From Erysipelotrichaceae bacterium UBA1783 (GTDB lineage: Bacteria; Bacillota_I; Bacilli_A; Erysipelotrichales; Erysipelotrichaceae), in contig DCGH01000074.1 of the NCBI GenBank assembly GCA_002315205.1, positions 3,617-27,062 on the forward strand: a DNA stretch of 23,446 nt, read 5' to 3'. Positions 8,481-22,127 of this stretch are shown piece after piece (the stretch's first letter is position 1; every line of letters begins with the position of its first letter). The notes under the pieces are model-generated. The model was not told the DNA's origin and made no database searches. It saw only the letters and a program-made list of their open reading frames with translations. The translations under genes and the position numbers were made by a program.

Positions 8481-8496
8481 CTGTTAATTTGTGAAA

Positions 8497-8516
8497 AAAT
8501 GAAAAAATTTTCATTT
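8497..8516 (+). repeat. Inverted repeat between the 101-aa and 50-aa genes
   Basis: AAATGAAAA-AA-TTTTCATTT is a near-perfect AT-rich palindrome 16 bp after the stop at 8480. It has no T-tract after it, so it is not a standard terminator. It might stabilise an mRNA end or bind a regulator. Confidence 0.35.
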
Positions 8517-8538
8517 GTAGAGTAGAGGAGTATCTATT

Positions 8539-8691
8539 ATGAAGAAATTAGTTCTAGCCGGTTTAATTACATATCCATTATTAATTATTTTTTTAGTAAT
8601 TAAGCAGGCTGATTTTATGTATACAATGTTAGCGATTTTTAGTTTTATAATGTATCTGATTACATTATTTAATAATAAAAACAATTTGTGA
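8539..8691 (+). CDS. Small predicted membrane protein, 50 aa
   Basis: This short open frame codes for 50 residues starting MKKLVLAGLITYPLLII and ending NNKNNL. It has two hydrophobic stretches (about residues 4-21 and 26-43) separated by a short polar turn (IKQAD), so a two-helix hairpin in the membrane is likely. A strong AGAGGAG ribosome-binding site (8524-8530) sits 8 nt before the ATG, which is the main reason to accept it as a gene. It may be co-transcribed with the upstream 101-aa gene. I know no function for it; small stress-type or regulatory membrane peptides look like this. Confidence 0.6.
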   Translation: MKKLVLAGLITYPLLIIFLVIKQADFMYTMLAIFSFIMYLITLFNNKNNL

Positions 8692-8702
8692 TTTTTTCAC
8701 AA
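8686..8702. promoter_or_regulatory. Inverted repeat TTGTGA-N5-TCACAA
   Basis: A perfect 6-bp inverted repeat overlaps the stop codon of the 50-aa gene. The half-sites resemble the redox-sensor Rex box, but the spacer is 5 instead of 6 bp. No following T-tract makes a terminator unlikely. Confidence 0.3.
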
Positions 8703-9226
8703 GTTACAAATTTGTTTATTTGATTTAAATTAAAAAATGAATAAAAATATTGTTATATGTAATATTCTATTTAATCTAAATATTAATAATACTTAATCAA
8801 CATGAATTTAATGTTAAATTAGCTAAAACTAAAAATGTTCTATTTTTAATTTATTGATCGATTATCCAATCAAAAAAAGATAAATGAAAATCTGGTTAAA
8901 ATTTTTAGCTGTAGAATTAATTTATTTTTTTAAAAGTGTATAAATACCTATTAAATTAAAAATAAATGGCTTTAAATTATTTTATAAGCTGGAAAAATAA
9001 AGCGATGGTTGAATAGTAATTAACAATTGCGTTTACATGAATAAAGTCTTTATAGAATTCTTTTAGTGAGTAATTATACAGATTAAAATGGATAAATTGA
9101 TTAGAATTGGCTATTTATAGCCTGTTTTTTATAAAAAAGCGCTCCTAATAATAACATAATATAGATTATGCGAAGTGTTTGCAATTACTTATCTTATATA
9201 GATATAATGATAAAAATGGCAAATAT
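8692..9226. other. AT-rich intergenic region with no convincing protein gene
   Basis: About 535 bp with visibly lower G+C than the flanking genes and stop codons in every frame. The longest tempting frames are 19 and 16 codons (ATG at 8884 and a second near 8967), both without ribosome-binding sites. It contains a clear terminator at 9109-9130, a palindrome ACAAATTTGT (8706-8715) and an inverted repeat CATAAT-N4-ATTATG (9155-9170). A promoter-like TTGCAA-18 bp-TATAAT (9179-9208, plus strand) faces the convergent 9306-9713 gene. A short regulatory RNA or a decayed gene are the main possibilities. Confidence 0.5.
9109..9130 (+). terminator. Orphan rho-independent terminator
   Basis: GGCTA-TTTA-TAGCC is followed by TGTTTTTT. 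The nearest plus-strand gene ends at 8691, more than 400 bp upstream, so it may end an unrecognised RNA or a long 3' UTR. Confidence 0.6.
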
Positions 9227-9250
9227 AAAGACCTTCTCTAGAAGGCCTTT
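9227..9250 (-). terminator. Terminator of the 9306-9713 gene
   Basis: Read on the minus strand, AAAGGCCTTC-TAGA-GAAGGTCTTT forms a 10-bp stem with one G-U pair, followed by ATATTT. On the plus strand the same position is an A-C mismatch, which points to minus-strand use. The T-tract is weak. Confidence 0.55.
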
Positions 9251-9305
9251 ATTAATTAAATAACAGATTAATTCTTTCTTATTTAGGTTTATATAACTTA
9301 ATTAT

Positions 9306-11027: not shown

Positions 11028-12182
11028 TTATTTTGAATATTCAATTAATGTGTCAACAAGCTTTTGTTTTGTATCCTTTGATAATACATCAGTAAAGGTC
11101 TCGTAAGTATATATTGTCTGATTTAATGGTGAAATGTATGGACTATATCCATTACTGTAACAGGTTAAAATAGCCTTTTCATGATCAACCTGTTGTAAAA
11201 AATAGGAGAACAATTCATTTGGAGCAAAAATCATATTAAAATTATTTAGCTTTATCTGTGAGATTCTCATTGATTTCTGAAGCTTTTCAGGAGCATTCAT
11301 TAATCTCTGTCTCATTATTTTACCATAACCAATTGTTTCCAATTCTCTTGCAGAAAGATTATTAGGCATTAAAGATGTATCTACATCTGTAAAATCAAAG
11401 CTGATTGGGATATCCTTACAAGTATAATGAATGTTATTTAAAGGTAATTTCACAAGTTCTTTTTTCTTCATTTCATTTATTTTGTTTACAAATATAACAC
11501 TAGCATTTTCAACATCTTCATAATGCTGTCCAGTTCTGGTAAATCTTGTAGAAACATCTCCTGCTGCCCCTTGCATAAAAGTATGGAAAACATTTGTTTG
11601 AGCATTTAGTTTTGATATTGAATTACCAACATATTCGCTTGAGAAGAAATCTGTTTCAACTGCTGAAAGAATGGTTGGATGACAATTATAATTTATAATG
11701 TCAAAAATTTCGTTATTCTGATTATAAATTCTTATTAAAGATAATAGAACTAAAGCTTTATGATTACTTATTCTAGAGGTTCCTACACCTTCAAATGATT
11801 CATATTGATAAGTGTAACTCAAATCCCCTTCAACAAATTCTAATTCATTAATGGCATTTTTGAATTGACGAATCAGCTGTTCTTTATATATATCATTTTC
11901 AGTATCTCCTGCATAATGAGTATGAGTTGTTGATAAAACAATAGAAGCTTTTTTTGTGAAATGATTCTTTAGATATTCATTCATTTCTTCTGTATAATCA
12001 AAATTTAAACTCAATAAGTCACAACTGAAATGAATAATGATTTCCTTATCATCCTCTAAAGCAAAAATTCTAGCTATCAAATCATCATGAACCTTGCTAA
12101 TAGGATTTACCTGCTGTATATGTCCGGATTGTTTTACAGGACTAACAGGATTGATGATGATTTCCTTTAATGCATATTTCAT
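11028..12182 (-). CDS. Neutral/alkaline ceramidase-like hydrolase, cytosolic and short
   Basis: This 384-aa protein has the motif series of the neutral ceramidase N-terminal catalytic domain: INPVSP (residues 10-15), STTHTHY with H87/H89, NCHPT with H168, QGAAGDVS with S211 at the position of the nucleophilic serine, PNEL with E323, and NGYSPYI with Tyr346/Tyr349. These match the zinc ligands and catalytic serine known in bacterial and animal neutral ceramidases. It is much shorter than those secreted enzymes (about 650 aa or more), lacks the C-terminal Ig-like domain and has no signal peptide, so the substrate may not be ceramide. ATG 12182 is preceded by GGGGGAT. It is the last gene of a three-gene minus-strand unit, 31 bp after the nuclease-fold gene. 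Confidence 0.8.
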   Translation of the reverse strand: MKYALKEIIINPVSPVKQSGHIQQVNPISKVHDDLIARIFALEDDKEIIIHFSCDLLSLNFDYTEEMNEYLKNHFTKKASIVLSTTHTHYAGDTENDIYKEQLIRQFKNAINELEFVEGDLSYTYQYESFEGVGTSRISNHKALVLLSLIRIYNQNNEIFDIINYNCHPTILSAVETDFFSSEYVGNSISKLNAQTNVFHTFMQGAAGDVSTRFTRTGQHYEDVENASVIFVNKINEMKKKELVKLPLNNIHYTCKDIPISFDFTDVDTSLMPNNLSARELETIGYGKIMRQRLMNAPEKLQKSMRISQIKLNNFNMIFAPNELFSYFLQQVDHEKAILTCYSNGYSPYISPLNQTIYTYETFTDVLSKDTKQKLVDTLIEYSK

Positions 12183-19551: not shown

Positions 19552-19587
19552 ATATAAAAAAGTGTCTTAGAAGGCTCTAAAACACTT
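19552..19587 (-). terminator. Terminator of the dnaE / two-component / def run
   Basis: On the minus strand AAGTGTTTTAGA-GCCT-TCTAAGACACTT forms a 12-bp stem with one G-U pair, followed by TTTTTATATT. It lies just after the deformylase stop at 19598. Confidence 0.88.
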
Positions 19588-19597
19588 GATAGCTTAA

Positions 19598-20008
19598 TTA
19601 TATTAATATTCCCTGAAGATGATCCATTTCATGCTGAATGATTTCAGCAGCGAAATCCTTAAATGTTTTTTCTTTCCATTTAAAGGTTTCATCCTGATAT
19701 CTGATCTGGATGCTTCTAAAGCGGTCTGTTTCTCTTTCTCCATCTAAAGAAAGACAGCCTTCCTTAGTATGATATAATCCAGTCGCTTTTTTGATTGTTG
19801 GATTATACATAACATAAAACTTGCCATTATCATTAATCGCAATAATCGCTTTATTAACGCCAATCATATTGGCAGCCATACCAACACAACGATCTCCATT
19901 GGCAATTAAGGTATCCAATAAATCCTTGCCAACTGATAAATCATTAATTGTTGCTTCATTCGCTTTTTATGATAATAAATAATGATCTCTACATATTGTT
20001 TTTACCAT
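19598..20008 (-). pseudogene. def: Peptide deformylase gene with in-frame stop at codon 14
   Basis: The full frame from ATG 20008 to 19598 would give about 136 residues, the normal size of the short Gram-positive deformylase group. It starts MVKTICRDHYLLS, then meets TAA at 19969-19967, then continues in the same frame as KANEATINDLSVGKDLL. The three metal/active-site motifs are intact downstream: CVGMAANMIGV, EGCLS and QHEMDHLQG. A CAA-to-TAA change would explain the stop, since relatives as I recall have a Gln-Lys there. GAGG precedes ATG 20008, which is 3 bp after the kinase stop. Restart at TTG 19918 (AAGGA 4 nt upstream) would give 106 residues lacking the first helix. Either the gene is recently inactivated with a paralog elsewhere, the base is an error, or an internal start is used. 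Confidence 0.8.
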
Positions 20009-20011
20009 AAT

Positions 20012-21460
20012 TTAAACCTCGTCTATTCGATATGCTTTTAATTCAAAGAAGAAGGTAGATCCAACATTTATTTTGCTGATAACACCATATTTTGCCTGAT
20101 GTCCCTCCAAAATAGCTTTACAGATTGCTAATCCTAAACCTGTTCCAGTTTTACTTCTCTGATATTTCTTATCAATTTTAAAATAACGATCCCAGATATA
20201 AGGCAATAGCTTTTCATCAATACCTGTGCCGTTATCCTGAACCTCTACTCTAATAGTGTCTTTATCCTTCAGATAGCCTCGAACAAATATCTTGTTATCA
20301 CTTCCATAATGCTTTAAAGCATTAGAGATAAAGTTATATACCACTTCCGTAATTCGGTCAATATCGCCATAGGCAACTAATTCAGTGTCAATTTCAGATA
20401 TGATTTCAACATTTTCTCCTTCAGCGATTGGGGTAAAATGCTCTATTGAATCATTAATAACACTAGATAAATCAAATGGTTCAATATTGAAATGTAACGC
20501 ATTTGCCTGTAGCTTACTTAAATTTAGCATATCCTGAACAAGCTTATTCAAATTATCAGTTTCAGAAAGAATGATATTTAAATGCTTATCACGCTTTTCT
20601 TTGTTATCGCCAGAAATATCGCGTATCATTTCGCTATATGCTTTAATCATTGTTAAAGGTGTTTTTAAATCATGAGATACATTGGCTATTAATTCCTTCT
20701 GGAATTCTTCTGATTTAGAAATATCAGCAGCAACAGCTTGTAATGTTTCTCCCAATTGATTCATTTCAGTAATTTCGATATTATCAAACTTCAAATTGAA
20801 ATCACCATATGATAGCTTTGCAGCTTCGTTTTTAAAGTTAATAATTGGCTTTGTTAAAAACTCAGAGAAAACTAAAGAGATGATTAAAGCTAATGCTAAT
20901 ACGATAACGGAAATAATAATGAACTGTCCCTGGATTGTCTTTGACAGAATATTCATAGATTGTAAGGTTATATTAGAAAAAACATAGTATTGTGATTTCT
21001 CAGTATTTACTTTTAATCCATATACCATTACTTCCTGATTAGATAATTCAATATATTCACCTGTCAATACAAGTGAGTTTTCATTTGTAGCAGCTAATTC
21101 ATCAATGAACATCTCATTTATAATACCATTGTTATAAATAGCACAGCCACTATCACCAATCGCATCAAAGCTGCTCGCCTTTCCGGTTTCAGTATCGTAA
21201 ATTAAAACACATGCATTGTTGTTAATAACATAAGCATAAACTGCGCCTGATTTTACATCATCCTGCTCATCAGAGAAATAGACATTTGCGACCTTTTCAG
21301 TTAAGCTTTTAATTTCTTTTCTTAATGTATTGTGATAAAAAGGTTCAATCAGAATAATCTGGAAAAATTCCAATAGTAAAAGAATGCTCAATGAAAAGAG
21401 CACGAAATAACTCCATGATTTGAATCTTAATGAGTTAAAAAACTCTCTTTTACTTTTCAA
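20012..21460 (-). CDS. Membrane sensor histidine kinase
   Basis: This 482-aa kinase has transmembrane helix 1 (about residues 17-38), an extracytoplasmic sensor region (39-177), transmembrane helix 2 (178-200), a HAMP linker (about 200-252), HisKA with phospho-acceptor H263 in VSHDLKTPLTM, and a HATPase_c domain. The ATPase domain shows an N box (NFISNALKH, 376-384), G1 (DNGTGI, 409-414), an F box (RYFK) and G2 (GTGLGLAICK, 439-448). All catalytic motifs are intact. The sensed signal is unknown. Its start overlaps the response regulator by 11 bp, and its stop lies 3 bp before the deformylase ATG. Confidence 0.95.
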   Translation of the reverse strand: MKSKREFFNSLRFKSWSYFVLFSLSILLLLEFFQIILIEPFYHNTLRKEIKSLTEKVANVYFSDEQDDVKSGAVYAYVINNNACVLIYDTETGKASSFDAIGDSGCAIYNNGIINEMFIDELAATNENSLVLTGEYIELSNQEVMVYGLKVNTEKSQYYVFSNITLQSMNILSKTIQGQFIIISVIVLALALIISLVFSEFLTKPIINFKNEAAKLSYGDFNLKFDNIEITEMNQLGETLQAVAADISKSEEFQKELIANVSHDLKTPLTMIKAYSEMIRDISGDNKEKRDKHLNIILSETDNLNKLVQDMLNLSKLQANALHFNIEPFDLSSVINDSIEHFTPIAEGENVEIISEIDTELVAYGDIDRITEVVYNFISNALKHYGSDNKIFVRGYLKDKDTIRVEVQDNGTGIDEKLLPYIWDRYFKIDKKYQRSKTGTGLGLAICKAILEGHQAKYGVISKINVGSTFFFELKAYRIDEV

Positions 21461-22127
21461 ATTTGTAACCTACTCCTCTGATTGTTAAAATCTTATTACC
21501 ATATATGCCAAGATTCTTTCTTAGCATTTTTATATGTGTATCAACTGTACGATCCACACCAATAAAATCATAGCCCCAGATTTTTTCTAAAAGAATATCT
21601 CTGGTGACAACAGTATTCGCATTATTAATTAAGTAAACTAATAAATCAAATTCTTTGTTTGTCAGATGAACTTCATTACCATCAACGGTAACAGTATGAC
21701 CATCTAAATCGATGGAAATACCATAAATTTTAATAGCCTTGTTTGTTTGTGCTGACTTTTTACCAGCATTGCTTCTGGCAATACAAACCTTAATTCTTGC
21801 CATTAATTCTTTAGGAGAAAAAGGCTTGGTAACATAATCAACGACACCACTTTCAAAAGACTTTAGCTTATCCTCTTCTTCACTTCTTGCAGATAGCATA
21901 ATAATAGGAGTATCTGCAATGGCATTAATTTCCTTAGCAGCAGATTGTCCATCTAAAACTGGCATCATAATATCTAAAACAATACAATCGAAATAAGTAT
22001 TCTTAACCATTTCAATGGCTTTCAGTCCATTTTCCGCTTCAAAGGTTTCATAGTCTAAAGCTTCTGCATATTCACAGATAACCTCTCTGATATATTGCTC
22101 ATCATCAACAATAAGTATTTTTGCCAT
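21450..22127 (-). CDS. OmpR/PhoB-family response regulator
   Basis: This 225-aa regulator has a receiver domain (1-115) with acidic pocket D8/D9, phospho-acceptor D52 (VLDIMMP), switch S79 and K101 (VTKPFSP), followed by a winged-helix DNA-binding domain (about 130-223) with the recognition region RDILLEKIWGYDFIGVDRTVDTHIKMLRKNLG. It is the cognate partner of the overlapping histidine kinase. The ATG follows GGGGGGAT and lies 13 bp after the dnaE stop, so it can be transcribed together with dnaE. Target genes cannot be named from this window. Confidence 0.96.
   Translation of the reverse strand: MAKILIVDDEQYIREVICEYAEALDYETFEAENGLKAIEMVKNTYFDCIVLDIMMPVLDGQSAAKEINAIADTPIIMLSARSEEEDKLKSFESGVVDYVTKPFSPKELMARIKVCIARSNAGKKSAQTNKAIKIYGISIDLDGHTVTVDGNEVHLTNKEFDLLVYLINNANTVVTRDILLEKIWGYDFIGVDRTVDTHIKMLRKNLGIYGNKILTIRGVGYKFEK

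Follow-up and report, generated by a model that had tools for sequence, protein, structure and literature searches.

Probable early loss, through a nonsense codon, of a short accessory deformylase-like gene behind a sensor kinase gene in an Erysipelotrichaceae bacterium

Additional deformylase genes have already been described in bacteria and phages. According to the available portion of PMC12690207, two or more deformylase genes occur in 48% of bacterial reference species, and in copies whose motifs are substituted (type 3) activity can be weak or absent, though not without exception. The available portion of PMC5591237 describes a very short deformylase of phage Vp16, 137 residues long, lacking a C-terminal domain and ending in Ile. 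Here we examine a short peptide-deformylase-like gene broken by a single in-frame stop codon, found in a stretch of 23,446 nucleotides (hereafter the window) of contig DCGH01000074.1 from Erysipelotrichaceae bacterium UBA1783. It seems quite probable that a dispensable short accessory deformylase-like gene at the end of an operon is here in the early stage of loss via a nonsense codon. The nonsense codon, near the 5' end, would have recently inactivated a short accessory gene lying behind a sensor kinase gene, translation from the conserved ATG would end after 13 residues, and the broken gene would make no functional product, the essential work presumably being done by a long housekeeping deformylase encoded elsewhere in the genome.

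The gene occupies positions 19598 to 20008 on the minus strand and consists of 136 codons plus a terminal stop. Its minus-strand translation from the ATG at 20008 gives 13 codons, a TAA at codon 14 (19967 to 19969) and then 122 open codons up to the terminal TAA (19600-19598), so that exactly one internal stop is present and the sequence-only reading of a single TAA in an otherwise open deformylase frame is confirmed. The 122-codon remainder is no chance frame, as it matches the curated family NF006670 end to end: taken alone, the part following the stop scores 165.5 bits against this profile (curated cut-off 162; profile positions 15-136; E-value 6.3e-49), and its score of 93.9 bits against PF01327 (curated cut-off 22.8) places it in the deformylase superfamily. 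Judged by its family, NF006670, the gene is thus classed as a short accessory deformylase. It bears the mark of a pseudogene, an in-frame stop absent from intact relatives. Column 14 varies within the family, with five different residues seen in 110 relatives, so that neither the exact base change proposed earlier, CAA to TAA, nor the ancestral codon could be established.

The same reading credited the gene with all three active-site motifs, which holds for two of them. Motif II (EGCLS, minus strand, 19748 to 19762) and motif III (QHEMDHLQG, minus strand, 19610 to 19636) conform to the definitions EGCXS and QHEXDHLXG given in the available portion of PMC12690207. The motif I region (minus strand, 19865 to 19885), identified by translation and alignment to solved deformylases, reads VGMAANM, with Met instead of the canonical Gln; in three alignments the last residue of GMAANM falls opposite the motif I Gln of the solved enzymes. 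The gene thus departs from a canonical active deformylase in motif I, and its Met for Gln is a substitution of the kind (in motif I or II) that characterizes type 3. Among the best 120 of 7,978 scored matches, 110 are exactly 136 residues long, and the Asn-Met pair in motif I is present in all 110 of these. The Met-for-Gln short family retains the metal-binding motifs II and III. A search of open-licence PubMed Central by accession or motif found no paper on this short family. Among 1,268 papers matched by a query on broken deformylases, the 15 listed deal with pseudogenes in general. A structure model of an intact relative, P0002, has a mean predicted local distance difference test score of 96.4 and matches solved deformylases, best 1v3y_B with a template modelling score of 0.88 (by query length). 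PDB entry 5mtc, which we take to be the likely Vp16 deformylase, is only a distant match (E-value 4e-15).

If the gene is accessory, its family should be distributed patchily among relatives and accompanied by a long deformylase. The nearest genome, G001, was found by its kinase (60% identical to that of the window), and 195 genomes of its family were searched. A short form scoring over the NF006670 cut-off is present in 48 of the 195 (G080 falls just below, at 161 bits), and an internal stop occurs in none of these 48. Match counts give a second, weaker NF006670 match beside the short form in 44 of them, the four without it being G078, G105, G127 and G128. When 18 genomes were searched with PF01327, two matches were obtained in each of 11 of the 44, and a single match, the short form, in each of those four. 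These four are either incomplete assemblies or genomes in which the short form is sufficient; G079 encodes a short protein nearly identical to that of G128 and does have a long form. Genomes reached through the kinase gene instead (12 of 54 loci) gave exactly one PF01327 match in 12 of 12, in a frame of 185-215 residues, and within the genus of G001 a long deformylase with GIAAPQ is found in seven of seven genomes and a short form in one of seven (G084). Among relatives the short gene is thus patchy and accessory, and its loss should be tolerable. The idea that the broken gene is the essential deformylase finds no support, as the genomes of relatives argue against sole-copy status, and the suggestion that a second deformylase explains the break is upheld by extrapolation from these same genomes.

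The one short form in the genus of G001 also allows the locus itself to be compared, as the earlier reading had proposed. In G084 the short gene (L105:1226-1633) begins one nucleotide behind the kinase gene (stop codon at 1224, ATG at 1226) and so holds the same place, behind the same sensor kinase, as the window copy. It is open over 136 codons, without an internal stop, and scores 178.5 bits against NF006670. Its motif II region reads EGCLCHCEVN, altered at S87, L88, G90 and R92, columns that are invariant in a 33-sequence alignment, although this assembly may contain errors. The two kinase-linked copies, in G084 and in the window, thus both look altered, each in its own way, which is consistent with the gene being less needed in this group; two cases prove little. 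The other six genomes of the genus (L095-L100) possess the kinase gene and have no short form behind it. Searches by tblastn with P0002-P0004 (E up to 1) found no relic of the short form behind the kinase in L095-L104 and L001, where L095-L104 cover no more than some 1500 bases beyond the kinase gene and L096 only about 450. In G084, 190 bases behind the short form, a segment (L105:1827-1880) running up to a stop codon is similar to the C-terminal 18 residues of the family; the match is not significant (tblastn E-value 0.30) and is possibly the relic of a second copy.

The age of the stop can be approached through the divergence of the broken copy. The intact relatives P0002, P0003 and P0004 are 84, 80 and 77% identical to it (intact short copies with an available DNA sequence are 53-54% identical to P0002). 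Identities to these three proteins amount to 9, 7 and 9 of 13 residues before the stop (8-9 between intact pairs), 13, 12 and 10 of 16 between the stop and a TTG codon at 19918 (intact pairs 11-12), and 90, 85 and 84 of 106 after this TTG (intact pairs 83-93). At columns conserved to 95%, the window copy departs four times, as against one, four and two times for P0002, P0003 and P0004. In a tree of 17 hand-picked sequences (14 taken from the 120 listed proteins, the part of the window copy following the stop, G084 and G079), which serves as a rough check, the terminal branch of the window copy measures 0.106 vs 0.024, 0.153 and 0.165 for the same three relatives. Old decay was accordingly rejected, the divergence of the window copy lying within the range of intact relatives; these small-number figures exclude old decay, not mild relaxation. 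Since no part of the broken copy is clearly more diverged than expected from intact relatives, the stop is probably recent, and the earlier description of a recent nonsense change rather than a decayed gene is supported as probable.

Other explanations would leave the gene working. The TAA could have entered the source contig through faulty sequencing or assembly, the gene being intact in the cell. A gene free of other lesions and with a divergence like that of intact relatives is what such an error would leave, and we nevertheless regard it as unlikely. A 106-residue protein identical to the corresponding piece of the window (P0001) forms a cluster of two members on two contigs (the longest of 56,978 bases), a hint that more than one assembly carries the stop, although one of the two may be the window's own source. 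No intact relative exceeds 84% identity among the 120 listed, and none of 23 other window genes checked contains an internal stop. The same 106-residue form, here a gene-caller prediction, would be the product if translation initiated or re-initiated at the TTG of codon 31 (19916 to 19918, minus strand) and yielded a protein with some function. An AAGGA stands shortly before this candidate start, its duplex energy with the anti-Shine-Dalgarno sequence (-5.0) is near that of the original ATG (-5.4, for the 20 nucleotides before 20008), and the regions of motifs I-III all lie downstream of it. This energy is weak evidence, since for random minus-strand sites the 5% quantile lies at -5.3 and the 10% quantile at -4.2, and a further ATG in the same frame, at codon 44 (19879), has a better energy (-6.4) yet would begin inside motif I. 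A start at residue 31 would moreover truncate predicted helix 1, which spans residues 21-36 in the P0002 model, and remove most of it. Divergence ahead of the TTG does not exceed that of the remainder (identities to P0002 of 9 of 13 and 13 of 16 vs 90 of 106), with the same trend among intact relatives, so that constraint on this part was not lifted long ago. The internal start suggested by the sequence-only reading is possible, but on the whole it appears improbable that it accounts for the gene.

A more elaborate version, to which we attach very little probability, would make the stop a built-in break: having translated 13 codons, ribosomes coupled to kinase translation would terminate and then re-initiate at the TTG. 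The result would be a 106-residue protein, a trimmed member of the Met-for-Gln short family with a metal site and, in this lineage, a role other than deformylation. Readthrough or recoding of the TAA, for which the open frame beyond it is the sole argument, is extremely unlikely and without support. TAA is the normal terminator in the window, ending 19 of the 23 genes checked (TAG ends the other four) as well as this gene itself, and internal stops are as absent from the 48 short forms of relatives as from those 23 genes. Reassignment of TAA was rejected on the same counts.

Several points weigh against early loss of an accessory gene, the explanation that we favour. The long deformylase of the window organism is deduced from its relatives, the stop is known from assembled sequence, and initiation at TTG 19918 might yet yield a product. 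The four departures of the window copy at conserved columns exceed those of 101 of 110 relatives (nine of the 110 have at least four), so that a mild relaxation of constraint on this copy is possible. Should G078, G105, G127 and G128 truly lack a long form, this would suggest that a cell can manage with the short one.

The surroundings of the gene agree with the earlier statement that its ribosome-binding site and operon position are preserved. A Shine-Dalgarno-like GAGG (20017 to 20020, minus strand) precedes the ATG within the end of the kinase gene, and the gene appears to close a three-gene operon encoding, in order, a response regulator, a sensor kinase and the deformylase-like protein. 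The sensor histidine kinase gene directly upstream (20012 to 21460, minus strand; HisKA and HATPase_c profile matches) ends 3 nucleotides before the deformylase-like ATG and overlaps the response regulator gene (21450 to 22127, minus strand; Response_reg and Trans_reg_C profile matches), the first of the operon. Specific family names for the two two-component genes fell below their own cut-offs among the matches listed and so were not used. The window kinase belongs to a cluster (P0121) of two members on one contig, and other kinases are at most 60% identical to it among the 120 matches listed. Behind the deformylase-like gene lies a terminator-like hairpin of 12 pairs followed by a T run (19560 to 19587, minus strand), a consensus match only; three such sites occur in the 2.9-kb region vs 1.3 expected from shuffles. 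Scans of the window for Rfam families and tRNA genes gave no match. Elsewhere in the window, about 0.8 kb of AT-rich DNA (8481-9305) contains no reading frame longer than 57 residues and no Rfam or tRNA match, and the 384-residue protein encoded at 11028-12182 has no Pfam or NCBIfam match at E 0.001.

The event is thus most likely real but ordinary, a gene loss caught early. It illustrates that a gene called 'essential' and found broken may not be the essential copy, and that the name peptide deformylase can hide a patchy accessory family in which the motif I Gln is replaced; this short Met-for-Gln family (48 of 195 genomes) is a more interesting object than the stop codon itself. Compared with the long housekeeping deformylase of G084 (190 residues), the window copy shares the deformylase fold family, whereas the long protein has the canonical GIAAPQ, is encoded elsewhere in its genome and is 32% identical to P0002 over 109 columns. 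NF006670 (PRK09218) shares with the window copy the 136-residue frame, GMAANM, EGCLS, QHExDH and the C-terminal Ile, but the stop at codon 14 is found in the window copy and in none of the 48 relatives over the cut-off. The Vp16 deformylase, as presented in the available portion of PMC5591237, is similarly short, without a C-terminal domain and ending in Ile; unlike it, the window protein has a motif I without Gln. The type 3 accessory deformylases of S. aureus and S. pneumoniae, compared here by their description in the available portion of PMC12690207, are likewise accessory copies with a substituted motif I, but are described there as intact genes with altered motifs. Accessory deformylase copies with substituted motifs were therefore already known, and the window would appear to add one that carries a nonsense codon.
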